Assembly: GCF_030605225.1 (NCBI RefSeq)
Contig: NZ_JAUWAV010000021.1
Location: 1 to 64,000 of the forward strand
From: Geoalkalibacter sp.
GTDB lineage: Bacteria > Desulfobacterota > Desulfuromonadia > Desulfuromonadales > Geoalkalibacteraceae
Length of the DNA stretch: 64,000 nt
Direction: 5' to 3'
A program made the position numbers and the translations under genes. Shown here piece after piece: positions 34,275 to 58,268 of the stretch; within the stretch, counting starts at the first letter, position 1, and each line of letters starts with the position of its first letter. A model generated the notes under the pieces. The model saw only the letters and a program-made list of their open reading frames with translations. It made no database searches and had not been told where the DNA came from.

Positions 34275-34396
34275 CCGTCATCCCGGCGCGGGACGCGACG
34301 TCTTGTCCCCCCGGGCGCTTTGTGGTATTGCTGAGCACCTGCCGCTCCGGCTCCGGTTGCAGGCCATCCCTTGTTTTTTGCCGAGGTTCGTTGCGC

Positions 34397-35815: not shown

Positions 35816-37733
35816 GCCCGCCTCTGCCTCCGAACGCCATGTGATCATCGGCACCGCCGGGCACGTCGATCACGGCAAGACCGCCCTGATCCGCGCCCTG
35901 ACCGGTGTGGAGACCGATCGCCTCAAGGAAGAAAAAACGCGCGGCATCTCCATCGACCTGGGTTTTGCGCCCTTTCGCCTGCCGAGCGGCCTGGTGGCCG
36001 GAGTGGTGGACGTGCCCGGCCACGAGCGCTTCATCAGCAACATGCTCTCGGGCATCGGCGGCATCGACCTGGTGCTGCTGGTGGTGGACGTCAACGAAGG
36101 GGTCATGCCCCAGACCCGCGAGCACGTGCAGATTCTCGACCTGCTGCAGATCCCCCGGGGCATCATCGTGCTCACCAAGTGCGATCTGGCCGAGGAGGAG
36201 TGGATCGACATCGTCGCGGAGGAAGTGCGCGAGGAGGTGGCCGGCACCTTTCTCGAAAAAGCGCCCGTGGCGCGCGTTTCCGCCCTGACGGGCGCGGGCC
36301 TCAAGGAACTGGGAGCGCTCATCGAGAAAACGGCGCAGACCCTGCCCGCCAAGGATAGCGACGGCCCCATGCGCCTGCCCATCGACCGGCACTTCACCCT
36401 CGCCGGCTTCGGCACCGTGATCACCGGCACCCTGCTCTCGGGTCGGGTGCGCCCCGGCGATCAGGTCGAGATGCTGCCGCCGGGCCTTAGCGTGCGGGTG
36501 CGCGAGGTGCAGGTCCACGGCAAGCAGGTGGCGGAAGCCTGCGCCGGACAGCGCGTGGCCCTCAATCTGGCCGGGCTCGACCGCGAGTTGATCCGGCGCG
36601 GCGCGGTCATCGCCACTCCCGGCGTGTTCGAGCAGACCACCTGCGTCGACGCCCGCCTCAGCCTGCTGGCCGAGGCGCCGCGCCCCTTGCGCTTTCGCGA
36701 TCCGGTGCATCTCTACCTGGGCACGGCGCGGGTGGTGGGCCTGGTGGCCCTGCTCGATCGCGACCTCATGCAGCCGGGCGAGAGCGTCATCGCCCAGATC
36801 CATCTCGATCGCCCTTTGGTGGCGCACCGCGAGGATCGCTTCATCATCCGCTCCTACAGCCCCATGACCACCATCGGCGGCGGCCGGGTGCTCGATCCCC
36901 GGCCCGCCAAGCACCGCCGCTTCCGCGCCGACATCCTGGCGGGACTCAAGGAACTGGAAAGCGGCGAGAAATCCTTTCTGCTGCAAAAACTCGGCGAACA
37001 GCAGGCGACCACGGCGAAAAACCTCGAACTGCTCTCGGGTCTGGGCAAGGAGCGGGTCGAGACCCATCTGCGCCAGTTGGAAGAGGAAGGTCTGGCCTGG
37101 CAACTGGTGGACCAGTGGGCCACCAGCGACGCCCTGGCCTCCTGGCGCCATCGCCTGATCGAAGCCGTCGCGCGCTTTCACGACGCCAATCCCCTGCTGC
37201 CCGGCATTCCCCACGCCACCCTCAAAGGGGCGCTGCCCGACAAGCTCTCCGCCAAGGCCTTCCAGAAACTTCTGCAGATGCTTCTCGATGACGGCCAGCT
37301 GGCGCAAAAGAGCGAATGGCTGCAATCGCCCGGTTGGCAGCCGCGACCCGCGCCGCGCCAGGCCGAGCTGCTGAGCAGGATCGAAGAGGCCTATCGCGAG
37401 GAGGGGATGCTCGCGAAAAACCGCAAGGAAATGCTCGACCGGCTTGGCGTGGCCGACGAGGACGCCGAGGTGCTGCTCGCCTACCTCTTCGCCGAGGGGC
37501 GGCTGGTCAAGCTCAACGAAGAGAGTTTTCTGCACGCCGAGGCCTATGCGCGGGCGCTGGAACTGCTCAGAAAGCATTTCGCCGCGCAGCAGACCCTGAC
37601 CCTGGCGCAGTTTCGCGACCTGCTCGGCAGCGCGCGCAAGCAGGTGCAGGCGCTGCTCGAGCATTACGACGGGCTCAAGTACACGCGGCGCGTGGGCGAT
37701 GAGCGAGTGGCGTGGAAGCTGCCGCCGGGGTAG
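35808..37733 (+). CDS. selB: Selenocysteine-specific elongation factor SelB
   Basis: A 641-aa GTPase that brings Sec-tRNA(Sec) to UGA codons marked by a SECIS hairpin. G1 is GTAGHVDHGKTALI, G3 is DVPGHERF, and G4 is TKCD. EF-Tu-like domains cover about the first 340 residues. The C-terminal about 290 residues hold the winged-helix repeats that bind SECIS RNA. It overlaps selA by 8 bp, so the two are translated together, and selD follows 37 bp later. Confidence 0.97.
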   Translation: MNKPASASERHVIIGTAGHVDHGKTALIRALTGVETDRLKEEKTRGISIDLGFAPFRLPSGLVAGVVDVPGHERFISNMLSGIGGIDLVLLVVDVNEGVMPQTREHVQILDLLQIPRGIIVLTKCDLAEEEWIDIVAEEVREEVAGTFLEKAPVARVSALTGAGLKELGALIEKTAQTLPAKDSDGPMRLPIDRHFTLAGFGTVITGTLLSGRVRPGDQVEMLPPGLSVRVREVQVHGKQVAEACAGQRVALNLAGLDRELIRRGAVIATPGVFEQTTCVDARLSLLAEAPRPLRFRDPVHLYLGTARVVGLVALLDRDLMQPGESVIAQIHLDRPLVAHREDRFIIRSYSPMTTIGGGRVLDPRPAKHRRFRADILAGLKELESGEKSFLLQKLGEQQATTAKNLELLSGLGKERVETHLRQLEEEGLAWQLVDQWATSDALASWRHRLIEAVARFHDANPLLPGIPHATLKGALPDKLSAKAFQKLLQMLLDDGQLAQKSEWLQSPGWQPRPAPRQAELLSRIEEAYREEGMLAKNRKEMLDRLGVADEDAEVLLAYLFAEGRLVKLNEESFLHAEAYARALELLRKHFAAQQTLTLAQFRDLLGSARKQVQALLEHYDGLKYTRRVGDERVAWKLPPG

Positions 37734-37770
37734 ACTGGATCAGGTGGACGTCTAGGACAAGGAGATGAGA

Positions 37771-38805
37771 ATGAGTGAGAAAGTTCGGTTGACCAGTCTG
37801 TCGCGCTCGGCGGGTTGAGCGGCCAAGATCGGGCCCGAGACCCTGGCGCAGGTGCTGCGTCAACTGCCAGCTTCCGCCGACCCCAACCTGCTGTCGGCGT
37901 CCATTCCCTTCGCCGATGCCGGCGTCTACCGGCTCTCCGACGAACTCGCCTTGGTGCAGTCAGTGGACTTCTTCACGCCGGTGGTGGACGATCCCTTTGT
38001 GTACGGGCAGATCGCCGCCGCCAACGCCCTCTCCGACATCTACGCCATGGGCGGGCGACCCCTGACCGCCCTCAACCTCATCGGCTTTCCCCAGTGCCTG
38101 GGCGTCGATTCCCTCACCGCGGTGCTGCGGGGCGGCGCCCTCAAGGTGGCCGAGGCGGGGGCGGTGATCGTCGGCGGGCATTCGGTGGAGGACGACGAAC
38201 CCAAATACGGCCTGGCCGTCACCGGACTGGTCGATCCGCGCAAACTGGTCACGACCGTCGGCGCGCGACCGGGCGACCGGCTGATCCTCACCAAGCCCCT
38301 GGGCACGGGGCTGCTCACCACCGCCCTCAAGGGTGAAATCCTCGACGAGAGCGATCTCGCGCCGGCCATCGCCGGCATGCGCCGTCTCAATCGCCGCGCA
38401 AGTGAAATCATGTGCGAGGTCGGCGTCCACGCCTGCACCGACATTACCGGCTTTGGTCTGCTCGGCCACGCCCTGGAGCTGGCGGCGGCCAGCGGGGTGT
38501 GCGTGGAACTCGACGAGCCCCTGCCCGCCTACCCGCGCGCCCTGGAGATGGCCGCCATGGGCCTGGTGCCGGAGGGCAGCCACCGCAACCGCAAGCACTA
38601 TCTGCCCTCCGTGCTCGATGCCGCCGCCATCCCCGTCCCCACCCTCGATCTGCTCGCCGATCCCCAGACCTCGGGCGGCCTACTCCTCGCCGTCTCCGCC
38701 GACAAATGCGCCGCGTTGCGCGAGCGCCTGCTCGCCGCCGGCGAGGATGGCTTTCTTATCGGCCGCGTCGCCGCCGGTCCCGCCGGACGATTGCGCATGC
38801 GCTGA
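37771..38805 (+). CDS. selD: Selenophosphate synthetase, itself a selenoprotein (Sec16)
   Basis: 344 aa counting selenocysteine. The start ATG at 37771 has AAGGAG 6 nt upstream. Codon 16 (37816-37818) is TGA and falls exactly at the catalytic position: the protein reads RSAGUAAKIGPE, where homologues have Cys or Sec followed by the essential Lys. Reading continues in frame through the ATP-binding fold (VDFFTPVVDDPFVYG, GGHSVEDDEPKYGLAVTG). SelD makes selenophosphate from selenide and ATP and supplies SelA. An annotation stopping at the TGA would wrongly start the gene at 37852. A canonical SECIS loop like that of the other Sec genes is not evident. Confidence 0.95.
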
Positions 38806-39024: not shown

Positions 39025-42000
39025 ATGGGAATCACACGCAGGAATTTTCTCAAGGGCAGCGGGGTCGCCGCCGGCACCGTCGCCCTGGCCGGCACCCCGG
39101 CCCAGGCCGGGGTCGACTCGCCGGATCTGCGCACCAAGGGCTTGCAGAGCACCACCACCATCTGCCCCTACTGCGCGGTCGGCTGCGGCATGATCGTGCA
39201 CGTCAAGAACGGGCGCATCGTCAACATCGAGGGCGACCCCGAGCATCCCATCAACCGCGGCTCCCTGTGCTCCAAGGGCAGCGCCATGTTCCAGGTGGCC
39301 AACAACGAGCGGCGCCTGAGCAAGGTACAGTACCGCGCCCCGGGCAGCGACCGCTGGGAGGAAAAATCCTGGGATTGGGCCATGGAGCGCATCGCGCGCC
39401 TGATGAAGGACAGCCGCGACAAGAACTTTGTCGCCACGGAAACCATCGACGGCAAGGAGTATCTGGTCAACCGCAACGAGGGCATGACCTTTCTCGGCGG
39501 CGCGGCCCTGGACAACGAGGAATGCTACCTGTGGAGCAAGTTCTCGCGCGCCATGGGCGTGGGCTATCTCGAACATCAGGCGCGAATATGACACAGCGCC
39601 ACTGTCGCCGGTCTGGCGGCATCCTTTGGTCGTGGGGCCATGACCAACCACTGGAACGACATCCAGTTCGCCGACGTGATTCTCTGCATCGGTTCCAATC
39701 CCGCCGAGAACCACCCAATTTCGTTCAAATACGTGGAAAAGGCGATGGACAACGGCGCCAAGCTGATCTCCGTCGACCCGCGCTACACCCGCACCTCGTC
39801 GAAAGCCGACATCTACGCCCAGTTGCGCCCCGGCACCGACATCGCCTTCATGGGCGGGCTGATCAACTACACCCTGAACAATGAGCTGTTCCACAAGGAT
39901 TACGTCGTTCACTACACCAACGCCGCCTTCCTCGTCGATGAGCGCTTCGCCTTCGACGAAGGCGTGTTCAGCGGTTACAACGCCTCGAGCTTCAGCTACG
40001 ACAAGAGCAGTTGGAACTACCAGAGCGACACCGAGGGCAACCCCCTGCGCGACGAAAGCCTCCAGCATCCGCGCTGCGTGTTCCAACTGCTGAAAAAGCA
40101 CTACAGCCGCTACACCCCCGAAGCGGTGTGCGAGATCACCGGCACCAGCATTCAGGACTACATGGCCGTAGCGCGCACCTTCTGCGCCACCGGCGCCACC
40201 GACAAGGTGGCGACCATCATGTACGCCATGGGCACCACCCAGCACACCTACGGCACGCAGAACGTGCGCTCCTACGCCGTGCTTCAGCTGCTGCTCGGCA
40301 ACGTCGGACGCGCCGGCGGCGGCATCAACGCCCTGCGCGGCGAGTGCAACGTGCAGGGGTCCACCGACTATGCGCTGCTCTACCACATCCTGCCCGGCTA
40401 CCTCAAGGCACCGGAATACAGCGATGTGGACCTCACCACCTACCTCGACAAGGCCACGCCGCGCACCAAGGATACGCAGAGCGCCAACTGGTGGAGCAAT
40501 TATCCCAAGTACCTGGTGAGCCTGCTCAAGGCTTTCTACGGCGAGCACGCCACGGCCCAGAACGACTTCTGCTACGACTATCTGCCCAAGCGCAGCGGCA
40601 ACTACTCCTACATCCGCGTCATGGAGCGCCTGCAGGAGGGCGGCTTCGACGGCATGTTCTGCATGGGCACCAACCCCATCGTCGGCGGCCCCGACGCCAA
40701 CGGCATCGCCCGCGGCCTGGACCGGCTCAAATGGCTGGTGGCCGCGGATCTCTGGGAGACGGAAACCTCCATCTTCTGGAAGCGTCCCGGCGTTGACCCG
40801 AAAAGCATTGCGACGGAAGTCTTCCTGCTGCCCGCGGCTTCGAGCGTGGAAAAGCAGGGCAGCGTCTCCAACTCGGGGCGCTGGGCGCAGTGGCGCTACA
40901 AGGCGGCCGATCCGCCGGGCCACGCCGAAAGCGACGCCTTCATCACCGATCAGCTGTTCCGGCGCATCCGCGCCCTTTACCAGAAAGAGGGCGGGGCCTT
41001 CCCCGCGCCCCTGGTCAACCTCGCCTGGAATTACGGCGAGGGCCATGAGCCCGACATCGACCTGGTGGCGCGCGAGTGCAACGGCACCTTCACCCGCGAC
41101 GTTGAGATCAATGGCACCCTCTACCGCAAGGGCCAGCAGGTGCCGGCCTTCGCCCTGCTGCAGGCCGACGGCGCCACCGCCAGCGGCAACTGGCTGTACT
41201 GCGGCTCCTACCCGGAAGCGGGCAACCAGATGCAGCGCCGCGGCCAGGAAGACCCCACGGGCATGGAGATGTACCACAATTGGGCCTGGTGCTGGCCGGT
41301 CAACCGCCGCGTGCTCTACAACCGCGCCTCCGTCGATCCCGACGGCCGTCCCTGGGATGCCAAGCGCGCCGTCATCGCCTGGAACGAGGTCAGCGGCAAA
41401 TGGGAGGGCGACGTGCCCGACGGCCCCTGGCCGCCCATGAACAAGCCCGGCGGGCGCAAGCCCTTCATCATGGTCGCCGAGGGTCTGGGCCGTCTGTTCT
41501 CCGCGGGTCTGGCCGACGGTCCCTTCGCCGAGCACTACGAGCCCATGGAAAGCCCGGTGGACAACCTCATGAGCCGCCAGCAGTGCAATCCGGCGGTGGC
41601 GCCGCCCGCCAATCTCAGCGACCGCGATAAGTTCCCCTACATCGGCACCAGCTACCGGGTGTCCGAGCACTGGCAGGCCGGTGCCATGACGCGCAACCTC
41701 TCATGGCTGGTGGAACTGGTTCCCGATATGTTCGTCGAGATGAGCGAACAACTCGCCGCCTGGAAGGGCATCAAGAACGGCGACTGGGTGACGGTGTCCT
41801 CGGAGCGCGGCGCCATCAACGCGCGCGCCTTGGTGACCTCGCGCATCAAGCCGCTGCGCATCGGCGGCAAGCTGGTCGAGCAGGTCGGCCTGCCCTGGCA
41901 CTTCGGCTTCGCCGGACTGGCCAAGGGCGATATCGCCAATGTGCTGACCTCGGCGGTGGGTTGCGCCAACACCACCATTCCCGAGTACAAGGCGTTTCTG

Positions 42001-42033
42001 TGCAACATCGAGAAGGGGGGTAAGAGCGCATGA
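39025..42033 (+). CDS. fdnG: Tat-exported selenocysteine formate dehydrogenase, catalytic subunit (operon 1)
   Basis: 1002 aa, read through one in-frame TGA. Twin-arginine signal TRRNFLKG at residues 4-11. The proximal [4Fe-4S] ligands are Cys47, 50, 54 and 82 (CPYCAVGC ... LCSKG). Codon 189 (39589-39591) is the Sec that ligates Mo/W, in EHQARIUHSATVAG, followed by a SECIS hairpin. The remaining molybdopterin-binding domains continue to the end (for example MTNHWNDIQFAD, GIKNGDWVTVSSERGAI). It oxidises formate in the periplasm and passes electrons to the Fe-S subunit encoded next, with which it shares an ATGA overlap. The two halves are one gene: frame is preserved and a paralogue has the same UGA. 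Confidence 0.96.
39589..39620 (+). promoter_or_regulatory. SECIS element of fdnG (operon 1)
   Basis: UGA at 39589-39591. Exactly 18 nt later the loop GGTCT (39610-39614) is closed by a 6-bp stem GTCGCC/GGCGGC (one G-U). Loop sequence and spacing equal those of E. coli fdhF. Confidence 0.85.
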
Positions 42034-47842: not shown

Positions 47843-49213
47843 CTACCCCTCGTCGGGGGTTAAATGATAATCCTGAATTTTGCGGTCGAGGGTGCGGCGG
47901 GTGATGTCGAGCAGGCGCGCCGCGCGGCTTTTGTTCCAGCCGGTGCGGCGCAGGATGCGCTGGATCTGCACGCGCTCGGCGTCGGCCAGGGTGACCGGTC
48001 CCTGCCCGTCGTCCTCGGCGACCATGGCCGGCGCCTGGGGGCGGCTGAGTTGCAGGGGCAGATCGGCGCAGCTGAGCGCATCGCCCTGGGCGAGGATCAC
48101 GCCGCGTTCGATGACGTTCTGCAATTCGCGCACGTTGCCCGGCCAGGCGTAATCGCGCAGGGCCGCCAGGGCCTCGGGGGCGATGCCGCGCAGAGGGCGC
48201 CCGAGGCGCATGGCGGCGCGGCGCAGAAAGTGCTCGGCGAGCACCTCCACGTCCTCGGGGCGCTCGCGCAGGGGCGGCAGGCGCAGGGCAAAGACGTTGA
48301 GCCGATAGAAGAGATCCTCGCGAAAGGCGCCGCGCGCCACCATGTCCTCGAGATTTTTGTTGGTCGCGGCGACAAAGCGCACATCGACGCGCTTGGCGCG
48401 GGTCGCCCCCACGGGGATGAATTCGCCTTCCTGCAAGACCCGCAGCAGCTTGGCCTGCAAGGCGGGGCTCAGCTCGCCCACCTCATCGAGAAACAGGGTG
48501 CCGCCGTGGGCCTCCTCAAGCAGCCCCTTTTGATTCTGCGCCGCGCCGGTGAAGGCGCCGCGCACATGGCCGAAGAGCTGACTTTCGAGCAGGGTTTCGG
48601 TGAGAGCCGCGCAGTTGAGGGCGAGAAAGCGCCGCTCGGCGCGGGGACTGGCGTAGTGGATGGCCGCGGCGACCAGTTCCTTGCCGGTGCCGCTTTCGCC
48701 GAGCAGCAGAACGCTCACATCGCCGGCCGCGGCGCGCCGCGCCAGGTCATGCACCTCGCGAAAGCGGCGGCTGCGGTAGATGATCTCGCCGGGCAGCAGA
48801 TGGCCGTGCAGATCTTTTTTTAGGGCGCGGTTCTCGGCGAGCAGGCGCTGACGCTCCAGGCAATGGGCGATGGCGGTTTCCAGGCGCTCCTCGGGAAAGG
48901 GCTTGGTCAGGTAGTCGAAGGCGCCCTGCTTGATGGCTTCCACCGCCGAATCGATGGTGCCGTAGCCGGTCATCATGATGACGCCGAGGTCGGGGCGCTT
49001 CTCCCGCACCCGGGCCAGCACCTCCAGGCCATCCATCTCGGGCATGCGGATGTCGAGGAGCAGCACGCCCCCCTCGTCCTCCTTCTCCAGGGCGGAGAGC
49101 AGCGCCGTGGGCGAGTTGTGCGACCGAGCCTCGAAGCCCCATTCGGCGACGGTCTTGCGCAGGTAACGCAGCATGCCTTCTTCATCGTCACAGAGATAAA
49201 TCACGTGGCTCAT
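47843..49213 (-). CDS. NtrC-family sigma-54-dependent response regulator
   Basis: 456 aa from the ATG at 49213; a TTG at 49237 (with AAAGG upstream) would add 8 residues. Receiver with phosphoacceptor Asp54 (LLLDIRMPEMDG) and TKPFPEE. Central AAA+ with Walker A GESGTGKE, the sigma-54 contact loop GAFTGA and Walker B TLFLDEVGEL. C-terminal Fis-type helix-turn-helix (WNKSRAARLLDITRRTLDRKI). All parts are intact. It heads the operon with the binding protein and kinase, divergent from formate dehydrogenase operon 2 and 3.7 kb from operon 1. Both operons have sigma-54 promoters, so it is their probable activator (inference). Confidence 0.93.
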   Translation of the reverse strand: MSHVIYLCDDEEGMLRYLRKTVAEWGFEARSHNSPTALLSALEKEDEGGVLLLDIRMPEMDGLEVLARVREKRPDLGVIMMTGYGTIDSAVEAIKQGAFDYLTKPFPEERLETAIAHCLERQRLLAENRALKKDLHGHLLPGEIIYRSRRFREVHDLARRAAAGDVSVLLLGESGTGKELVAAAIHYASPRAERRFLALNCAALTETLLESQLFGHVRGAFTGAAQNQKGLLEEAHGGTLFLDEVGELSPALQAKLLRVLQEGEFIPVGATRAKRVDVRFVAATNKNLEDMVARGAFREDLFYRLNVFALRLPPLRERPEDVEVLAEHFLRRAAMRLGRPLRGIAPEALAALRDYAWPGNVRELQNVIERGVILAQGDALSCADLPLQLSRPQAPAMVAEDDGQGPVTLADAERVQIQRILRRTGWNKSRAARLLDITRRTLDRKIQDYHLTPDEG

Positions 49214-49307
49214 CGGCGGGGTGTCGACCTTCGGCAAAAAAGAAACCTTTTTCTCATGAAACAGACTGCATCACCCAAAAACGCCGACCGTTCCCGGGTG
49301 GATAAAA

Positions 49308-49336
49308 TGTATACACTGTATGAAAAAAATATACAA
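49308..49336 (-). promoter_or_regulatory. Candidate sigma-70 promoter of the regulator operon
   Basis: On the minus strand TTGTAT (49331-49336), 17 bp, TATACA (49308-49313). Each box matches four of six consensus positions. This gives a leader of about 90 nt. Confidence 0.45.
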
Positions 49337-49446
49337 CCTCCCGCCCACCCGAGGATTTTCAACCCTTGGCGCGCGACCCTTCTAACATAGTGTAAACAAT
49401 AAGAAGTTTGGAAAAATAGAACGTTGGTATGAGCCTTGCTCTCATG

Positions 49447-49462
49447 AGGCATCCAACTTGCG
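49447..49462 (+). promoter_or_regulatory. Sigma-54 promoter of formate dehydrogenase operon 2
   Basis: AGGCATCCAACTTGCG: GG at -24 and TTGC at -12 with the exact 10-bp gap, though the -24 block is less perfect than in operon 1. Predicted start near 49473, about 70 nt before fdnG. Confidence 0.75.
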
Positions 49463-49545
49463 GATTCTTGTCGGCCGCGCATCGGCTGCATACCTGTTCG
49501 ACCCGGATGCGCGCCGACTTATTTTTCAATGAAAAGGAGTCGAGG

Positions 49546-52500
49546 ATGAACCTGAACAGACGCGGTTTCCTCAAGGTTTCCGGCGGCGCGGTGGGCGCCT
49601 CGGTGCTGGGCATCGGCCTCAAGCCGGCCGAAGCCTACGCCCAGCCCCTGGCCATCCAGTATGCCCGGGAAACCACCACCATCTGCCCCTACTGCTCGGT
49701 GGGGTGCGGGATCATCGTCCACAGTCGCGGCAACCAGGTGATCAACACCGAGGGCGACCCCGACCACCCCATCAATCGCGGCACCCTGTGCCCCAAGGGC
49801 GCCTCGGTCTATCAGCTGCGCGACAACCCGGCGCGGGTCACCGAGCCCCTGTATCGCGGCAAGGGCGAGCGCGAGTGGCGCAAGGTCAGCTGGGACTGGG
49901 CCCTCGACCAGATCGCGCGGCGCGTCAAGGACACCCGCGACGCGAGCTTCATGCAGGTCAACGCCAAGGGCCAGACGGTCAACCGCACCGACGCCATCGC
50001 CTCGGTGGGCAGCGCCGCCCTGGACAACGAGGAATGCTACCTCTACCAGAAGTTTCTGCGCGGCCTCGGCGTGGTGTACCTCGAGCACCAGGCGCGAATA
50101 TGACACTCCGCCACGGTTGCCAGTCTGGCAGCCACCTTCGGTCGCGGCGCCATGACCAATCACTGGATCGACATCCGCAACGCGGACGTGATCCTGATGA
50201 TGGGCGCCAACCCTGCTGAAAACCATCCCGTTTCCTTCAAATACGTGCTGGAGGCCAAGGACCGCGGCGCCACCCTGCTCAGCGTCGATCCGCGCTTCAC
50301 CCGCACCTCGGCAAAATCCGACATCTACGCGCCCCTGCGCTCGGGCACCGACATCCCCTTTCTCGGCGGGATGATCCGCTACATTCTCGAAAACAACCTG
50401 TATTTCGACGAATACGTCCGGCTCTACACCAATGCGTCCTTTTTGGTGAGCGAGGACTTCAAGATGCCCGACGAGCTCGACGGGCTGTTCTCGGGCTATA
50501 ACGAGGAAAAACGCAGCTACGACAAAGCGAGCTGGAGTTTCCAGCGCAACGAGGACGGCACGCCCAAGACCGACCCGAGCCTGCAGGATCCGCGCTGCGT
50601 GTTCCAGTTGATGAAACGGCACTTCAGCCGCTACACCCTGGATGTGGTCTCCGACATCACCGGCACGCCCAAGGACAAGCTGCTCGCGGTCTACGAAGCC
50701 TATGCCTCGACGGGCAAGCCCGACCGGGTGGCGACCATCCTCTACGCCATGGGCTGGACGCAGCACACCGTGGGCACCCAGAACATCCGCGCCATGGCCA
50801 TCATCCAGCTGCTGCTCGGCAACATCGGCATGGCCGGGGGCGGCGTCAACGCCCTGCGCGGCGAATCCAACGTGCAGGGCTCGACGGACTACGGCCTGCT
50901 GTTTCACATCCTGCCCGGCTACCTGCCCACGCCCAACGCCGGGCAGCCCGATCTGGCGAGCTACATCGAGGCGCACACGCCCAAGACCAACGATCCGCAA
51001 AGCGTCAACTGGTGGAGCAACCGCGGCAAGTACATCACCTCGCTGCTGCGCGCCACCTACGATCAGAACCTCACCGCCGAGCAGGGCTTCGGCTACGATT
51101 TGCTGCCCAAGCTCGACGTCGGGCAGAACGGCTCCTGGTTGATGCTCTTCGACCGCATGTATCAGGGCGGCATCAAGGGCTTTTTCGCCTGGGGGCAGAA
51201 CCCGGCCTGCTCGGGAAGCAACGCCGGCAAGGTGCGCCAGGCGCTGGCCAAGCTCGACTGGATGGTGACCGTCAACCTCTTCGACAACGAGACCGCTTCC
51301 TTCTGGAAGGGGCCGGGCGTTGATCCGAGCAAGATCGACACGGAAGTGTTCTTCCTGCCCGCCGCGGTGTCCTTCGAGAAGGAGGGCAGCGTCACCAACT
51401 CGGGGCGCTGGGCGCAGTGGCGCTACCAGGCGGCCAAGCCCCTGGGCAACTCGCGGCCCGACCTCGAGATGATCAACGATCTGCAGTTCCGCGTGCGCCG
51501 TCTCTATCAGAGCGAAGGCGGGGCCTTCCCCGATCCGATCCTCAAGCTCTCGTGGAACTACGGCTTCAAGATGCCCGACGGCTCCATCCCGCACATCGAC
51601 GTGCACGCCGTGGCCAAGGAGATCAACGGCTACTTCCTCGAAGACAAGGAAATCGCCGGCAAGCTCTACAAGAAGGGCGATCCCGTGCCAGGCTTCGCCA
51701 TGCTGCAGGCCGACGGCTCGACCAGCTCGGGCAACTGGCTGTACTGCAACAGCTACGCCGACAAGGGCAACCTCATGGCGCGCCGCGGCAAGAATGACCC
51801 GAGCGGCGTCGGTCTCTACCCCGAATGGGCCTGGTGCTGGCCGGTCAACCGCCGCATCATCTACAACCGCGCCGCCGTGGACGTGAACGGCAAGCCCTGG
51901 GATGCCAAGCGCCCGGTGGTCTGGTGGACCGGCAGCGGCTGGGCGGGCGACGTGCCCGACGGTCCCTGGAAGCCCATGAGCGACCCCGAGGGCAAGAAAC
52001 CCTTCATCATGACCGCCGACGGCGTGGCCGGGCTGTTCGCTCCGGGTCTCAACGAAGGCCCCTTCCCCGAGCACTACGAGGCCCTGGAGTGCCCCCTCGA
52101 CAAAAACCCGCTGCACGGCCAGCGCATCAACCCCACCATCCGTCTGTTCCCGGCCGGGGCCGCGGGCGAGGAGGTCGATGCCTATTACAGCTGCGACCAG
52201 CGCTATCCCTACGTGGCCACCACCTACCGGGTCACCGAGCACTGGCAGACCGGCGTCATGACGCGCAACACCCCCTGGTTGCTCGAGCTTCAGCCGTCGA
52301 ATTTCGTCGAGCTGAGCGTCGAGCTGGCCCAGGAAAAGGGCATCAAGAACGGCGACTGGTGCGTTGTTGCCTCGGGTCGCGGTCAGGTCGATGCGGTGGC
52401 GGTGGTCACCAAGCGCTTCCGCCCCTTCAAGGTGCAGGGCATGACCATCCATCAGGTCGGCTTGCCCTACCATTACGGCTGGCATACGCCCAAGGCGGGA

Positions 52501-52599
52501 GACAGCGCCAACCTGCTCACCCCCACCGTCGGCGATGCCAACACCATGATCCCGGAAACCAAGGCCTTCATGGTCAATATCGAAAAGAAAAGGGGGTGA
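49546..52599 (+). CDS. fdnG: Tat-exported selenocysteine formate dehydrogenase, catalytic subunit (operon 2)
   Basis: 1017 aa, read through a TGA at codon 186 (50101-50103). Twin-arginine signal NRRGFLK (residues 4-10). [4Fe-4S] ligands Cys47, 50, 54 and 82 are at exactly the positions of the operon 1 paralogue. The Sec context EHQARIUHSATVAS is nearly identical, and a SECIS hairpin follows. The rest of the molybdopterin enzyme is complete (MTNHWIDIRNADVILMMGAN ... GIKNGDWCVVASGRGQV). The two catalytic subunits are clear paralogues but sit with different membrane subunits. The start has AAGGAG 6 nt upstream. The beta subunit gene follows 6 bp later. Confidence 0.96.
50101..50133 (+). promoter_or_regulatory. 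SECIS element of fdnG (operon 2)
   Basis: UGA at 50101-50103. After 18 nt comes the loop AGTCT (50122-50126), closed by a 7-bp stem GGTTGCC/GGCAGCC (one G-U). Compared with operon 1 the first loop base is A instead of G; the key G-U dinucleotide of the loop is kept. Confidence 0.82.
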
Positions 52600-52605
52600 T
52601 GAGCG

Positions 52606-53394
52606 ATGGCACGCAAAGCATTTCTGATCGACATGAGCCGCTGCATCGCCTGCCGCAGCTGCCAGGTGGCCTGCAAGCAGTGGAACAAGCTGGAGCCAGA
52701 GGCGACGGTGAATCGCGGCACTTACGAAAACCCGCCGCAGCTCACCCCCCAGCTCTACAACCAGATCCAGTTCATCGAACAGGATAAGGACAATGAGGTA
52801 CGCTGGCTGTTCATGAACCAGCGCTGCATGCACTGCGGCGATGCCGGCTGCATCAAGGTCTGCCCATCGGCGGGCGCGCTCTATCACACCCCCGAGGGCA
52901 TGGTCGCCTTCAACCAGGACAAGTGCATCGAGTGCCACTACTGCGTCAACGGCTGCCCCTTCGACGTGCCGCGCTACGACCAGAAGAAAAAGGTCACCAA
53001 GTGCCATGCCTGCATGGACCGCATCGCCAACGGCCTGGCGCCGGCCTGCGTCAAGGCCTGTCCGACCCAGACCCTGCGTTTCGGCGATCGCGACGCGCTC
53101 ATCGCCGAAGCAAAGGCGTCGGGCAAGAAGATCTACGGCGAGGAGGATCTCAAGGGCCTGGGCGCCGTCTACATCCTGGAGGATGCGCCGGAGACCTATC
53201 AGCTGCCGGCCAAGCCGGCCATTCCCGCCTCCATCTTCCTGTGGAAGGACGTCATCAAGCCCCTGGGCATCCTGGGCTTCTGGGGCGCCATGGGCGCGGC
53301 GCTGCTGCACTATGTGACCTTCGGGCCGAAAAAGCTCGACGAGTTCGGCAGGCGGCATGACGATGACCTGAACCATCCGGAGAAAGGGGCCTGA
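52606..53394 (+). CDS. fdnH: Formate dehydrogenase iron-sulfur (beta) subunit, operon 2
   Basis: A 262-aa subunit with four [4Fe-4S] clusters: CIACRSCQVAC, CMHCGDAGCIKVC, CIECHYCVNGC and CHACMD ... CVKAC. A C-terminal membrane span (about 213-235, DVIKPLGILGFWGAMGAALL) anchors it. It is shorter than the operon 1 paralogue by 27 residues. The start has AAGGGGGTG upstream. It passes electrons to the b-type cytochrome encoded 4 bp later. Confidence 0.94.
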   Translation: MARKAFLIDMSRCIACRSCQVACKQWNKLEPEATVNRGTYENPPQLTPQLYNQIQFIEQDKDNEVRWLFMNQRCMHCGDAGCIKVCPSAGALYHTPEGMVAFNQDKCIECHYCVNGCPFDVPRYDQKKKVTKCHACMDRIANGLAPACVKACPTQTLRFGDRDALIAEAKASGKKIYGEEDLKGLGAVYILEDAPETYQLPAKPAIPASIFLWKDVIKPLGILGFWGAMGAALLHYVTFGPKKLDEFGRRHDDDLNHPEKGA

Positions 53395-53398
53395 CGCC

Positions 53399-54022
53399 AT
53401 GAACACATCCATGAGCAGATATGTAGAGCGTTTCAATGTCGTGGAGCGGGTGCTGCACTGGACCCTGGTGGTGGCCTTCTTCATCCTGGTGCTCACCGGC
53501 CTGGGCCTCTACGCCCGCACCTTCTTCGGCTATTTCGACTTCTTCGGCGGTCCCCGGCAGGGCATTCTGTTTCACAAATGGGCGGGGGTGGTGTTCTTCA
53601 CCTCCTCGCTGCTGCTGGCCCTGAGCCACCTGAAGGAGCTCTTCACCTTCGACCAGGACGATGTGCTCTGGCTGAAAAAGCTCGGCGGCTACCTGTCCAA
53701 GGAGCATGAGGACATTCCCCAGGGCAAGTTCAATTGCGGCCAGAAGCTCTTCGGCATCTTTTCCCTGGTGGGCACGCTGGTCATGGGCATCACCGGCATC
53801 ATCATCTGGGATCCGGCCGCCTTCGGCCGCGGCCTGACCCAGTTCTCCCTGATGCTGCACGCCCTGTTCTTCACCCTGTTCATGGTGGGCGCGGTGGTGC
53901 ACATCTACCTCACCACCCTGGGCAACCCGGGCACCCTCTCCAGCATGCTCTATGGCCATGTCACCAAGACCTGGGCCAAGGCGCACGCCGTCAAGTGGTA
54001 CCGCAAGGTGCAGAAGGGCTAG
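53399..54022 (+). CDS. fdnI: Formate dehydrogenase cytochrome b (gamma) subunit, operon 2
   Basis: A 207-aa membrane protein with four predicted spans and histidines in the usual heme b positions (RVLHWTLVV, FHKWAGVVFF, LHALFFTLF, VVHIYLTTLG). It belongs to the FdnI/FdoI family that takes electrons from the Fe-S subunit across the membrane and reduces menaquinone. Its presence makes operon 2 an E. coli Fdh-N-like enzyme, in contrast to the NrfD-type operon 1. Confidence 0.93.
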   Translation: MNTSMSRYVERFNVVERVLHWTLVVAFFILVLTGLGLYARTFFGYFDFFGGPRQGILFHKWAGVVFFTSSLLLALSHLKELFTFDQDDVLWLKKLGGYLSKEHEDIPQGKFNCGQKLFGIFSLVGTLVMGITGIIIWDPAAFGRGLTQFSLMLHALFFTLFMVGAVVHIYLTTLGNPGTLSSMLYGHVTKTWAKAHAVKWYRKVQKG

Positions 54023-54030
54023 ACGTCCGG

Positions 54031-54069
54031 TGGACTGAATTGGACAAGGATGGACGAGGTGGACGGGGT
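54031..54069. repeat. Short 9-10 bp tandem TGGAC repeat
   Basis: Four copies of TGGAC at 54031, 54041, 54051 and 54060, in units TGGACtgaat, TGGACaagga, TGGACgagg and TGGACgggg. It lies in the 119-bp gap between fdnI and the Sec-DsbA gene. The function is unknown; it may be just a slippage product. Confidence 0.6.
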
Positions 54070-54141
54070 GAATCGGAGGCAATTGCTGCTATGCTTGAGC
54101 CGGTTCATGCCCGTCCACTCTTTCGTGCCGGAGGTTCATTG

Positions 54142-54732
54142 ATGCGCGTGCGAACATTCACCTTGCTGATTCTGCTGCTGTGGTCGGCGACCCTCGCCGG
54201 GGCCGTCGACATCCCCCTCGACCAGGCGCCGGTGCGCGGTCCCGCCGACGCGCCGGTCACCATCATCGAATTCATGGATTTTCAGTGACCCTTCTGCCAG
54301 GCGGTCGGTCCGACCGTCGAGAAGGTGCTGGAAGTCTACGGCGATCAGGTACGGCTGGCGATCATCCACTTTCCCTACCGCTACCGAGATTACGCCGCCC
54401 TGGCCGCCCAGGCCTCCGAGGCGGCGCGCGCCCAGGGCAAGTTCTGGGAGATGCATGATCTGATGCTGACGCGCAAAAAGCTCGACCGTGACAGCCTCAT
54501 CGGCTATGCCCGGGAGCTTGATCTGGATGTGGCGCGCTTCACGCGTGAGCTGGACGGCGAGAAATACCTGGCGCGCGTCAACCAGGATGTGGAACTGGCG
54601 CGACGCCTCGACATCTACCAGACGCCGACCTTCTTCATCAACGGCCGCAAGCTGGTGGGAGAGCGGCCCTTCGAGGCGTTTCAGGCGATCATCGACGAGG
54701 AACTGGCCAAGGCCGGGAGAAAGGGGCCGTAA
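54142..54732 (+). CDS. Selenocysteine-containing DsbA-like thiol oxidoreductase (UPFC active site)
   Basis: 196 aa counting Sec. A signal peptide (MRVRTFTLLILLLWSATLAGA) sends it to the periplasm. Codon 49 (54286-54288) is TGA and sits where the thioredoxin-fold proteins have the first active-site Cys: the protein reads EFMDFQUPFCQAVGP. The rest of a DsbA/thioredoxin_4 fold follows, with the helical insertion and the cis-proline loop YQTPTFFINGRKL. A SECIS hairpin with the same geometry as in fdnG follows the UGA. Its stop is adjacent to the peroxidase ATG (TAAATG), so the two are coupled. It may reduce or oxidise thiols of exported cytochromes or the peroxidase (inference). A conventional annotation would split this gene in two. 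Confidence 0.93.
54286..54316 (+). promoter_or_regulatory. SECIS element of the Sec-DsbA-like gene
   Basis: UGA at 54286-54288. After 18 nt comes the loop GGTCC (54307-54311), closed by CGGTC (54302-54306) / GACCG (54312-54316), a perfect 5-bp stem. Same spacing as both fdnG elements. Confidence 0.82.
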
Positions 54733-55779
54733 ATGCGCGCGCTCGTTTATGCCCTGATGCTGATTTTGACCCTGGTCGCCCAGGTTCCGGCCGAGGAGCG
54801 CCTGCCGTTGCCAAAGCCCCTGCCGGAACTGCTGCCGCCGCCCGCCGAGCGGGTGGAGCTGGGGCGCCTGCTGTTTTTCGACCGGCGGCTCTCGGGCGAC
54901 GGCACGATCAGCTGCGCGGTGTGCCACGATCCCGAGCAGGCCTATGCCGACGGCCGGCCTTTGTCCGGCGCCTACCCGACCAACAAGCACTGGCGCAACA
55001 CCCAGAGCCTGATCAACGTCGCCTACCTGAACCGTTTCCTGTGGGACGGGCGCAGCTACACCCTGGAGCAGCAGGCCGAGGGGCCGATTCATTCCTCCTT
55101 CGAGATGAATCTGCAACTCGACTATCTGGTGGAGAAGCTGCGCGAGACGCCGGACTATCCCGAGCGGTTCCAGCAGGCCTACGGCAGCGAAATCAACCGC
55201 GCGGTCATCACCACGGCCCTGGCTGATTTTCAGCGCACCCTGATCGTGCGCGACACGCCCTTCGACCGCTACCTGGAGGGCGACGAAGAGGCCCTGAGCG
55301 AAGAGGCCCGCCAGGGCATGGCACTGTTCTACGGCAAGGCCGCCTGTCAGCGCTGCCACAGCGGGCCGCTGCTTTCGGATCAGAAATTTCACAACCTGGG
55401 CGTCACCGAAACGCCCGAGTTGCTCAACGACCCTCAGCGGCGTGTCACCCGTCATTTCTTCCAGGTGCAGATGGGCCTGGAGCGCGGCGAGCGCGACCCG
55501 GGGCGTTATGCGGTGACGCGCAACCCGGCCGAACGGGGCGCCTTTCGCACCCCGCCCCTGCGCCAGGTGGCGCAGACCGCGCCCTACATGCACAACGGCA
55601 GTCTCGCCACGCTGGAGGAGGTCATCGCCTTTTACATGCGCGGCGGCGGCGCGGATCCCGACAAATCACCGCTGATGCAACCGCTGGCGCTCTCCGCCGA
55701 GGAGCAGGCCGCGCTGCTCGCCTTTCTGCACAGCCTCTCGGGCACGGTACCGGTGGCGCGACCGCCGCAACTGCCCTGA
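54733..55779 (+). CDS. Diheme cytochrome c peroxidase / MauG family
   Basis: A 348-aa periplasmic protein with a signal peptide (to about residue 20, AQVPAEE). Two c-type heme motifs: CAVCH in the N-terminal domain and CQRCH in the C-terminal one, with the surroundings typical of the family (LGRLLFFDRRLSGDGTISC, NTQSLINVAYL, FWDGR-type FLWDGRSYTLEQQAEGPI, FRTPPLRQVAQTAPYMHNGSL). It reduces H2O2 using periplasmic electrons, or belongs to the MauG-like modifiers. It is translated directly after the Sec-containing DsbA-like protein, which suggests a shared anti-peroxide or cytochrome-assembly role (inference). Confidence 0.92.
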   Translation: MRALVYALMLILTLVAQVPAEERLPLPKPLPELLPPPAERVELGRLLFFDRRLSGDGTISCAVCHDPEQAYADGRPLSGAYPTNKHWRNTQSLINVAYLNRFLWDGRSYTLEQQAEGPIHSSFEMNLQLDYLVEKLRETPDYPERFQQAYGSEINRAVITTALADFQRTLIVRDTPFDRYLEGDEEALSEEARQGMALFYGKAACQRCHSGPLLSDQKFHNLGVTETPELLNDPQRRVTRHFFQVQMGLERGERDPGRYAVTRNPAERGAFRTPPLRQVAQTAPYMHNGSLATLEEVIAFYMRGGGADPDKSPLMQPLALSAEEQAALLAFLHSLSGTVPVARPPQLP

Positions 55780-55808
55780 ACCCTGATCAGACCAGGAGAT
55801 GATCCCTC

Positions 55809-56693
55809 GTGAAATTTGTCGAGCAACGCCGTCAACGCCTGACCCAGCTGCGCCGCCTGCGGCCGCAGTTCAATGAAATTTTCGATTTTTACGAACACCT
55901 CTACGCCTTTTTGGCGAAACAGCCCAACGCCTTTGTGTCCATCGCGGCGCCGACGCCGGCCGATCGCGTACCGCACGAGGCCGGTTTTCCGCTGCTGCAA
56001 AGCACGAGCTTTCAGGTCGACGGCCCCTCCTTCGGCGCCTTCCTGCGTGCCCTGATCGCCGTGCTGCAACGCCATGGCCGCCAAGGCCAGGAGGATCTGG
56101 CGCGCATCGATCAGGCCCTTGCGGACGCAACACTTGATCCCGCGCCCCTCTTCGGCGCCTATGTGGGCCGCGAGCGCGAGCGCTTTGCCGCGGATGCCGC
56201 GCATCTCGGCATCGAACCCGCGATTCTCGAATATCTACTGGGCCTGGCGTGCGGGTTCGCCCTGCATGGAGCTCGCGAACAGGGCCTGAAGGCGGCCGAG
56301 GGCGAATGGCGCCAGGGTTACTGCCCGCTGTGCGGCGGCGTGCCGGTGATGGGCGAACTGGTGGGCGACGAAGGCCGTCTGCTGCTGCACTGCGGCACCT
56401 GCGGCCAGTCATGGCCGGGGGCGCGGCGCACCTGCACCGTATGCGGCAATCAGGACGAAAAGACCCTGGAATACTTCACCGCCGGGGAGGACCAGGGCTA
56501 TCGGGTCAACGTGTGCCGCAAATGCGACAGCTACCTCAAAGTGGTGGACAGCCGCGAGACCGGAACCGATCTGCCCATGGATCTGGAGGATGTCGCCACC
56601 CTGCACCTCGACCTGCTCGCCCAACGCGAGGGCTTTACCCGGGTGAAACGCGACTACGCGCCGGCGGATACCGGCAAGGCGGGGTTGAATTGA
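55809..56693 (+). CDS. fdhE: Formate dehydrogenase accessory protein FdhE
   Basis: A 294-aa cytosolic rubredoxin-like maturation factor. Four CxxC pairs are visible in the C-terminal part: CPLC, CGTC, CTVC and CRKC, which in E. coli bind iron and interact with the FdnG/FdoG catalytic subunits before export. The length is close to E. coli FdhE (309). It follows the peroxidase gene by 29 bp and supports maturation of one or both dehydrogenases in this window. Confidence 0.93.
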   Translation: MKFVEQRRQRLTQLRRLRPQFNEIFDFYEHLYAFLAKQPNAFVSIAAPTPADRVPHEAGFPLLQSTSFQVDGPSFGAFLRALIAVLQRHGRQGQEDLARIDQALADATLDPAPLFGAYVGRERERFAADAAHLGIEPAILEYLLGLACGFALHGAREQGLKAAEGEWRQGYCPLCGGVPVMGELVGDEGRLLLHCGTCGQSWPGARRTCTVCGNQDEKTLEYFTAGEDQGYRVNVCRKCDSYLKVVDSRETGTDLPMDLEDVATLHLDLLAQREGFTRVKRDYAPADTGKAGLN

Positions 56694-56849: not shown

Positions 56850-58268
56850 ATGGAGCACGGCAAGCGGCGGGGCATTCTGCGGTTCGAACGCGGGCAGTTC
56901 CGGCATCAGGAACGGCCCCTGGTGCAGGAATATCCCCTGGAACTCATCGTCAATGACCGCCCCCTGGCGACCCTGGTCAGCTCTCCCCACCAGCTCAACT
57001 TCCTGGTATCGGGCTTTCTGCGTTTACAGGGTTTCATCGACACCCTCGACGACATCGAGACCCTGGGCGTCTGCGCCGACTTCGGCAGCGCGCGCGTGCG
57101 GGTGCGCGGCGCCCTCCCCGAGCGTCTCAAGCCGACCCTGACTTCGGGCTGCGGCACGGGCATCTCCTTCAACCTGCCCGAACAACTCACCGCCTCCCCC
57201 GCGCTGGACACGGGCGCCGCGACCTTTGCCCCCGCCGCCATTTTCCAGCTGATGAAGGACCTGGCGCGCCACGCCGAGAACTACGCCAGCCATGGCGGCA
57301 TCCACTCGGCCGCGGTGGGCGACGGCGAGCGCTTGCTGCTCTTCGCCGAGGACTTGGGCCGCCACAACACCCTGGATCGCATCGCCGGCGAAGCGCTGTT
57401 CCGCCGCATCGACCTCGCCGGCCGGATGCTCGTGACTTCGGGGCGGGTGTCGACGGAAATGCTGGCCAAGGCCGCGCGCCTCGGCATCAGCCTCATCGCC
57501 TCGCGCACCTCGCCCACGGACAAGGCGGTGGAATTGGCCGAACAGGCCGGCATCACCCTGGTCGGCTACGTGCGCGGCGAAAGCTTTGAAGTCTACGCCC
57601 ACCCCGAGCGCATCGCCCTGGCCGTTCCGGAACGAAAAATCGCCGGCATCACCGGCGTCATTCTGGCCGGCGGCGAAAGCCGGCGCATGGGCTGCGACAA
57701 GTCTCTGCTGCCCGTGGAGGGGGCGCGCTTCATCGATCACATCCATCGACGCCTGAGCGCCCTGTTCGACGAGGTGATCATCGTCACCAACTCACCGAGC
57801 CTCTATCAAGACATCCCCTGCCGCAAGGTGCCCGACATCTACTACGCCAAGGGATCCCTGGCAGGCATCCATTCGGGGCTGTGCCACGCGCGCCATGAAC
57901 GCGTGTTCGTCGTGGCCTGCGACATGCCCTTTCTCAACGCCGAGGTCATCCGCGACCTCTGCGCCCATGCCGAGCAGGGCGAGGTCGTCATTCCCCAGAG
58001 CCCGCGCGGGCCGGAACCCCTGCACGCCCTCTATCACAAAAGCTGCCTGCCCGCCATCGAGGAGGCGCTCGACCAGGGCCGAAGACGCATCGTCGCCTTC
58101 TTCCCCGCCGTGCAGGTGCATGAAGTGGCCCTCGCCGAGTTGACCGAGCACGACGCCGAGGGTCACAGCTTCCGCAACATCAACACGCCCGAGGAATATT
58201 TCCAGTGCCGCACCGCCCAGCCCACGGCCCTGGAGGGCGTCGCACCCCTGCGCCGTCAGCAGTCCTGA
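56850..58268 (+). CDS. fdhD: FdhD-MobA fusion: formate dehydrogenase sulfurtransferase plus Mo-cofactor guanylyltransferase
   Basis: 472 aa. Residues about 1-260 are FdhD, which transfers sulfur from IscS to the Mo-cofactor of formate dehydrogenases; the conserved loop reads TSGCGTGIS with a single Cys101, where E. coli has CxxC. Other FdhD blocks (HAENYASHGGIHSAAV, FAEDLGRHNTLDRIAG, TSGRVSTEMLAKAA) are clear. Residues about 268-450 are MobA, with the nucleotide motif GVILAGGESRRMGCDKSLL. MobA attaches GMP to give the bis-MGD cofactor. Fusion puts the last two cofactor steps in one chain. AGGAGG precedes the start. The stop abuts the stop of the convergent radical SAM gene with no gap. Confidence 0.93.
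   Translation: MEHGKRRGILRFERGQFRHQERPLVQEYPLELIVNDRPLATLVSSPHQLNFLVSGFLRLQGFIDTLDDIETLGVCADFGSARVRVRGALPERLKPTLTSGCGTGISFNLPEQLTASPALDTGAATFAPAAIFQLMKDLARHAENYASHGGIHSAAVGDGERLLLFAEDLGRHNTLDRIAGEALFRRIDLAGRMLVTSGRVSTEMLAKAARLGISLIASRTSPTDKAVELAEQAGITLVGYVRGESFEVYAHPERIALAVPERKIAGITGVILAGGESRRMGCDKSLLPVEGARFIDHIHRRLSALFDEVIIVTNSPSLYQDIPCRKVPDIYYAKGSLAGIHSGLCHARHERVFVVACDMPFLNAEVIRDLCAHAEQGEVVIPQSPRGPEPLHALYHKSCLPAIEEALDQGRRRIVAFFPAVQVHEVALAELTEHDAEGHSFRNINTPEEYFQCRTAQPTALEGVAPLRRQQS

Follow-up and report, generated by a model that had tools for sequence, protein, structure and literature searches.

Is the TGA that interrupts a DsbA-like gene of Geoalkalibacter sp. read as selenocysteine (Sec), and what would the resulting protein act upon? 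The gene, called sec-dsbA here, lies in a 64,000-nucleotide stretch of contig NZ_JAUWAV010000021.1; the whole of this stretch is referred to as the window. An initial annotation, made from the letters of the window, had proposed a DsbA-like selenoprotein with a diheme peroxidase as its partner. The features that bear on this proposal are collected in Table 1.

Table 1. Positions of the genes, codons and RNA element of the window considered in this work.
Feature	Position	Strand	Remarks
selA	34322-35815	+	Sec machinery
selB	35808-37733	+	Sec machinery
selD	37765-38805	+	Sec machinery; own TGA at 37816-37818
fdnG, formate dehydrogenase-N alpha subunit	49546-52599	+	N-terminal RR motif; Sec codon 50101-50103; SECIS_3 match
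FdnG Cys849	52090-52092	+	Redox switch; corresponds to C845 of D. vulgaris FdhA
FdnG Cys883	52192-52194	+	Redox switch; corresponds to C872 of D. vulgaris FdhA
fdnH, iron-sulfur subunit	52606-53394	+	TIGR01582 (FDH-beta) matches best, with 240.9 bits, under the cut-off of 334.7
fdnI, cytochrome b556 (gamma) subunit	53399-54022	+	TIGR01583, 158.8 bits, above the cut-off of 115.85
sec-dsbA	54142-54732	+	Signal peptide (by eye) and DsbA-like thioredoxin domain; active site U49-P-F-C52; invariant T161-P162
Predicted selenocysteine codon TGA (U49)	54286-54288	+	TGA in 24/24 subfamily loci read; Cys in 18/18 of the next-best homologues read
Apical hairpin of putative SECIS	54300-54318	+	Loop GGTCC at 54307-54311, 18 nt past the TGA
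Di-heme c-type protein, CCP/MauG superfamily	54733-55779	+	CAVCH, CQRCH; looks exported
fdhE, FDH assembly protein	55809-56693	+	FdhE_C, 35.1 bits, above the cut-off of 27
fdhD-mobA fusion	56850-58268	+	FdhD/NarQ and MobA-like domains

A TGA codon at the active site of a DsbA-like protein

The sec-dsbA frame has 196 codons followed by TAA, with a single TGA at codon 49. This TGA falls at the first active-site Cys position of a DsbA-like thioredoxin domain, as the initial annotation had stated, and the frame, the Pfam domains and the relatives of the protein all bear this out. Pfam Thioredoxin_4 is matched with 94.5 bits (1e-26; cut-off 23.2) and Pfam DSBA with 70.4 bits (2.3e-19; cut-off 25.6). 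An AlphaFold2 model (pLDDT 83.8; 11 sequences, with Cys replacing Sec) predicts a thioredoxin fold with a helical insertion; its top fold match is B. subtilis BdbD (Z 22.6 over 171 residues, 1.8 A), and further matches include C. diphtheriae TsdA/DsbA and ScsC (Z about 19-20) as well as DsbA. BdbD, TsdA/DsbA and ScsC have Cys where the window protein has Sec, are about 22-30% identical to it, and are encoded in genomic contexts unlike that of the window. The T161-P162 pair, a candidate cis-Pro loop, is invariant in 11/11 aligned rows. The product of sec-dsbA is predicted to be a DsbA-like oxidoreductase; the surroundings of the active site were considered as a cue to oxidase or reductase activity and judged not decisive.

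The TGA is conserved throughout a subfamily. Among 147 related genomes, the best 12 matches, the window's own included, all have TGA at the position of codon 49, the other 11 being 58-87% identical to the window's protein, and the next 18 matches read (L013-L030) all have Cys at this position. A profile search of 395 genomes sampled from the phylum gave 13 genomes above 200 bits, each with one TGA inside the match, while matches below the subfamily reached at most 186 bits and had Cys at the site in the three that were fetched. TGA is thus found in 24/24 distinct subfamily loci (23 compared together, plus L219). In eight pairwise comparisons dN/dS is 0.05-0.28 both before and after the TGA; the protein downstream of the TGA, like the part upstream, appears to be under purifying selection. 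Alignment of homologues and conservation of the frame across the TGA had been named as checks by the initial annotation, and both came out in its favour. Two members are irregular: the match in genome G056 (L012/L061) is limited to residues 40-140, where the frame then ends, and this gene may be broken or misassembled; L008 has an additional TGA close to the C-terminus. A plasmid search returned only matches of less than 60% identity.

Stop codons at the same site were also observed outside the subfamily. Six related genomes carry a second, distant group of DsbA-like genes (L062-L067; 33-39% identity) with TGA at the equivalent site; none has an adjoining di-heme match, and the only match to FdnH is a distant one, some 5 kb off, in L062. 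L148 and L155, on Chloroflexi- and Thermoflexus-titled contigs, are DsbA-like genes whose active-site position is taken by a stop codon, and no further protein of the formate dehydrogenase operon was matched within the stretch examined.

The hairpin with a GGTCC loop 18 nt after the TGA, noted from the outset, is present in the window sequence. The 1656 TGA triplets of the window, both strands taken together, were filtered for GGTC 17-19 nt downstream, carried by a stem of at least five pairs, and three passed: those at 54286 (7 pairs), 39589 (7 pairs) and 21668, whose hairpin (5-bp stem, GGTC 17 nt after the TGA) is probably a product of chance. The filter does not catch the Sec codons of fdnG and selD. 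Across the 23 sec-dsbA sequences, codon +5 is GCG in 22/22 cases of Ala, codon +7 is GGT in 23/23 (elsewhere in the compared stretch GGT makes up 1/30 Gly codons) and codon +8 is CCG in 23/23 (elsewhere 25/71 Pro codons). The 7-bp stem has 92.5% of its cells paired vs at most 49.1% in slid versions, and eight cells with double changes vs at most two; its covariation score of 0.166 barely exceeds that of one slid version (0.158), and its count of doubly changed pairs, two, is equalled by another slid version and by 397/500 shuffles. Single-sequence folding is ordinary, with a z of -1.29 and 21/200 shuffles folding equally well. In a cmscan of positions 49000-56500, the Rfam SECIS models gave no match to the sec-dsbA hairpin; the one SECIS match is SECIS_3 in fdnG, at 51.1 bits, under the gathering threshold of 63. 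A search of the organism's own genome with RF00031 found nothing and is uninformative because 14 control genomes were likewise blank. For this putative SECIS, the comparative evidence is stronger than that from single-sequence folding.

Nearly all sequence tests thus favour the Sec-DsbA proposed by the initial annotation, the exceptions being the missing Rfam SECIS match and the ordinary single-sequence fold. These exceptions would be expected if the TGA were a genuine stop, as in the standard code, or if the gene were decaying, and the early end of the frame in L012 points the same way; yet a TGA kept at the same codon throughout the subfamily, purifying selection on either side of it, frozen hairpin codons and the presence of the Sec machinery in the genome (with tRNA-Sec on another contig) all argue against such a stop, which we regard as highly improbable. 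The TGA is almost certainly the Sec codon of a DsbA-like protein with a UPFC active site. The in-frame TGA of selD, in the context SAGU, is an observation of the same kind, because of which SelD is probably a selenoprotein too.

Sec in DsbA-like proteins is already known and has been predicted since 2005. As far as the available text of the surveys goes, nine sequences were reported from the Sargasso Sea (PMC1088965), four in PMC1794560 and DsbA 1, 2 and 3 in PMC2398784, with further examples in PMC1914089, PMC9312934 and PMC13188914; the rarity that had been claimed for Sec-DsbA proteins is therefore relative, since they appear in several selenoproteome papers. In the accessible parts of these surveys, the DsbA-like selenoproteins (UxxC, PF01323) resemble that of the window in having a DsbA domain, Sec at the first active-site Cys and a SECIS directly downstream, with Deltaproteobacteria among the hosts, and no member of a formate dehydrogenase operon, di-heme partner or substrate is given for them, whereas in the window's subfamily every member found has TGA and all lie beside formate dehydrogenase genes. 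The best NCBIfam match of Sec-DsbA is NF041057 (Rcas_1661 thioredoxin-like selenolipoprotein), at 98.4 bits below the cut-off of 190; this family, called 'DsbG-like' in the part of PMC13188914 that is available, has UxxC in common with it.

A two-gene cassette of formate dehydrogenase clusters

The initial annotation had missed that sec-dsbA and the di-heme gene sit within a formate dehydrogenase (FDH) operon, beside a second Sec gene, fdnG. The gene order is fdnG (Sec), fdnH, fdnI, sec-dsbA, the di-heme gene, fdhE and fdhD-mobA; this is a new context for a DsbA-like selenoprotein. Twelve loci of the window's order (Desulfuromonadales) carry the pair; nine of them show the gene order in full, and the other three (L051, L058, L061), cut by contig ends, agree over their extent. 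Further afield, the pair is placed after fdhD in L084, L159 and L160; in L080, on a Nitrospirae-titled contig, it stands beside an FDH with a membrane subunit that is NrfD-like by eye and with no fdnI match; in L219 it adjoins fdhD-mobA and what looks by eye like a molybdenum-cofactor gene, with no fdnG in the stretch. Because the two genes stay together while their place changes, sec-dsbA and the di-heme gene can be described as a two-gene cassette that belongs to FDH clusters. The fdhD-mobA fusion itself has nearly full-length matches in L076 and L219.

The pairing first noticed in the window is general: 24/24 subfamily loci have the di-heme gene after sec-dsbA, with both on one strand. Here the ATG of the di-heme gene (54733) abuts the sec-dsbA stop codon; the spacing differs in relatives. 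Its product shares with MauG, MbnH and di-heme CCPs a CCP_MauG Pfam domain and two CxxCH motifs, which are kept in all relatives' rows that cover them, but it falls below the cut-offs for MauG (TIGR03791; 257.6 vs 443.85) and MbnH (TIGR04039; 246.1 vs 362.85) and lacks a conserved CCP Met column: the position of the Met that ligates heme in classical CCPs is occupied in its relatives by F, L, Y, Q or I, with no invariant residue. A MauG-type Tyr ligand, suggested by Tyr301 on the CCP Met column of the window protein alone, was dropped because the column is not conserved in relatives. Of the designation 'diheme peroxidase', then, the di-heme part holds and 'peroxidase' is too precise, given the scores below the MauG and MbnH cut-offs and the variable Met column. 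Di-heme matches (E 1e-40) occur in 29/147 genomes, with the cassette in only 12 of these; those without it are 34-41% identical, except for a remnant in genome G021 (59%).

A 2026 review (PMC13188914) describes, in its available text, the functions of DsbA-like and similar selenoproteins as largely uncharacterised, and the selenoprotein operons given there (grd, prd, frh/hdr, Prx-type pairs, SAO, Tso) do not include one of FDH and sec-dsbA. A literature search over the accessible text of sources mostly other than subscription journals returned no paper on an FDH-linked Sec-DsbA/di-heme operon; the FDH-linked sec-dsbA subfamily with its di-heme partner is new to the sources searched.

Switch cysteines and the cassette

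An FDH with a redox switch has been described in D. vulgaris: according to the available text of the reports, a surface disulfide of FdhAB, C845-C872, keeps the enzyme O2-protected and nearly inactive, its reduction activates the enzyme, and the switch is opened with DTT in vitro (PMC13397495, PMC11323313, PMC11134731). In the accessible parts of these three papers no enzyme is named as setting the switch in the cell, and 'thioredoxin' has no occurrence in those of PMC13397495 and PMC11323313. Both switch cysteines align with the window's FdnG (C849 with C845 and C883 with C872), as does Met405, equivalent to M402 of FdnG (YAMGWTQH; D. vulgaris numbering by hand count), which is also found in relatives without the Cys pair and does not discriminate here. 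FdnG is predicted to be an FDH with allosteric redox-switch cysteines; it differs from D. vulgaris FdhAB in its fdnI-type membrane subunit, and its operon carries the sec-dsbA/di-heme cassette.

Within the window's order, 20 genomes with a close FdnI (at least 58% identity) were compared, five with a distant FdnI (29-32%) being left out. Cys occupies both switch positions (C/C) in 12/12 genomes with the cassette vs 0/8 without it, where the residues are S/N, S/S, C/N, S/S, S/N, S/N, S/D and C/Y. In these eight, fdhE comes directly after fdnI, except in G021, where remnants lie between the two, and a genome-wide search of all eight found no sec-dsbA subfamily member beyond the G021 remnant. FdnG was also scanned, with kinship ignored, over 1015 testable columns (478 of them variable) for those in which at least 90% of the cassette group share one residue that at most two of the other group have: only C849 (12/12 vs 2/8) and C883 (12/12 vs 0/8) pass. 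If columns are instead required to have no residue in common between the groups, C883 is selected along with the variable columns 384 and 682. Within the window's order, presence of the cassette appears to track the FDH switch cysteines.

The window itself holds a second FDH alpha subunit (39025-42033), directly downstream of selA-selB-selD; after it come an iron-sulfur subunit, assigned by eye, and an NrfD protein. The Sec TGA of this alpha subunit (39589-39591) has a GGTC hairpin 18 nt after it. This FDH has no cassette and is without the switch cysteine pair.

In a tree of 53/88 FdnG rows (quick method, SH-aLRT only, both switch columns included; 30 cassette-free phylum rows and five that were duplicates or second rows did not enter the tree), the eight FdnG without the cassette fall in three separate places, with SH-aLRT values of 82-88 on some of the separating branches. 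Independent contrasts yield six pairs: on average, cassette and cysteines change in the same direction in 2.5 and in opposite directions in 0, and 3.5 show no difference, too few for significance (sign test p 0.125-0.5). The pattern reads as three joint losses of cassette and switch pair, given that most FDHs from outside the order are C/C and that G021 still has remnants; the method itself cannot tell gain from loss. In G021 (L076 6700-7800, minus strand; L077), decaying remnants of both cassette genes persist between fdnI and fdhE, a sec-dsbA fragment with a destroyed active site and a di-heme gene with stops, and FdnG, on a neighbouring contig, is C/Y; this genome appears to have been caught in the course of losing the cassette.

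Across the phylum, 60 FDH loci were considered, drawn non-randomly from the upper part of a match list and in many cases cut by contig ends. Nine have the cassette (eight C/C; L160 is C/N) and 51 do not; 48 of the latter, which lack it in the stretch examined, are C/C, the exceptions being L161, L211 and L217, and the phylum profile search gave no subfamily match in the genomes of the 51. The idea that the switch pair needs the cassette is ruled out by these 48 loci, and the FDH switch can therefore, to judge from the alignments, work with other partners. Taken from the side of the cassette, C/C is found in 21/23 loci that have both cassette and fdnG (the 24th, L219, is without fdnG); the full pair is missing in L084 (T/-) and L160 (first Cys only). 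L161 (C/S) ends short of the place of the cassette, and its genome (90% complete) has no subfamily match. L199, an FDH locus with a 38% identical DsbA-like homologue that has Cys at the site, was counted as cassette-free; L079, L081, L082 and L083 duplicate L051, L054, L058 and L059 and were counted once.

A candidate operator of the FDH switch

The dedicated redox function that the initial annotation had suggested for the pair can be kept and narrowed to a specific candidate substrate, the switch of FdnG. We consider it fairly likely that Sec-DsbA controls whether the FDH switch is oxidised or reduced, as a periplasmic oxidoreductase dedicated to the FDH of its own operon. Signal peptides and an RR motif, judged by eye, mark Sec-DsbA, the di-heme protein and FdnG as probably exported, and the three should therefore meet in the periplasm. 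SelB would read the UGA at 54286 as Sec via the hairpin, producing the U49-P-F-C52 active site, a step well supported by sequence; the substrate of Sec-DsbA would be the FdnG disulfide C849-C883, as the co-occurrence of cassette and cysteines suggests. After exposure to O2, the U49 selenolate would attack this disulfide and C52 would resolve the selenosulfide, leaving FDH active, and oxidised Sec-DsbA would be re-reduced through a CcdA/DsbD-type membrane protein. The part of the di-heme protein is the weakest step: it might remove peroxide formed by leakage of electrons from FDH to O2, which is a guess, or else pass oxidising equivalents to the Sec-DsbA/FdnG pair. FDH can indeed pass electrons to O2, according to the available text of PMC11323313.

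As to direction, reduction, i.e., re-activation after oxygen, is favoured because searches of the genome with one Pfam model each found neither DsbB nor VKOR and there is one DsbD_TM protein, which may serve cytochrome c maturation instead. More tentatively, the cassette as a whole might make FDH respond to oxygen or peroxide, with the di-heme protein sensing or consuming H2O2 and the selenol/thiol exchanger setting C849-C883, and be lost along with the switch.

The strict di-heme partner would fit, instead of reduction, a relay in which H2O2, through the di-heme protein, oxidises Sec-DsbA, which then closes the FdnG disulfide and locks FDH in its O2-protected state. We know of no thiol-oxidising di-heme protein of the CCP/MauG superfamily, which counts against such a relay, as do the variable CCP Met-ligand column of the di-heme protein and the fact that most pair-bearing FDHs in the phylum sample are without the cassette. 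It would nevertheless account for the pairing with a CCP/MauG-type protein in 24/24 loci; it agrees with the DsbA/BdbD-like fold of the model and, since neither DsbB nor VKOR was found to re-oxidise Sec-DsbA, oxidation would need another oxidant. FDH can use O2 as acceptor, in the available text of PMC11323313, which also suits this relay; on the whole we hold it to be somewhat unlikely. A general oxygen-protection package appears quite unlikely: Sec-DsbA would repair oxidised thiols, the Sec of FdnG or the heme-site cysteines of the di-heme protein, and stricter anoxia would explain the loss of the switch. Such a package would give the same joint presence and absence, the cassette persists in L084 and L160, which do not have the full pair, and the di-heme partner, being c-type, needs reduced CxxCH thiols; however, by the 90% criterion only the two switch columns among 1015 FdnG columns follow the cassette, and di-heme proteins of the superfamily also occur without it (29/147 genomes, 12 with the cassette). 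Our preferred reading remains that Sec-DsbA acts on the FdnG switch, with a lean towards reduction.

The co-occurrence described here gives the Sec-DsbA family a candidate substrate, the FDH switch disulfide, and gives the switch a candidate operator in vivo, so that the function of the selenoprotein and the identity of the operator both become testable. It may also be of relevance to oxygen-tolerant FDHs in CO2 reduction. Should the more tentative reading of the whole cassette given above hold, sec-dsbA and the di-heme gene would belong to a system in which an enzyme turns formate metabolism on and off in response to oxygen or peroxide.
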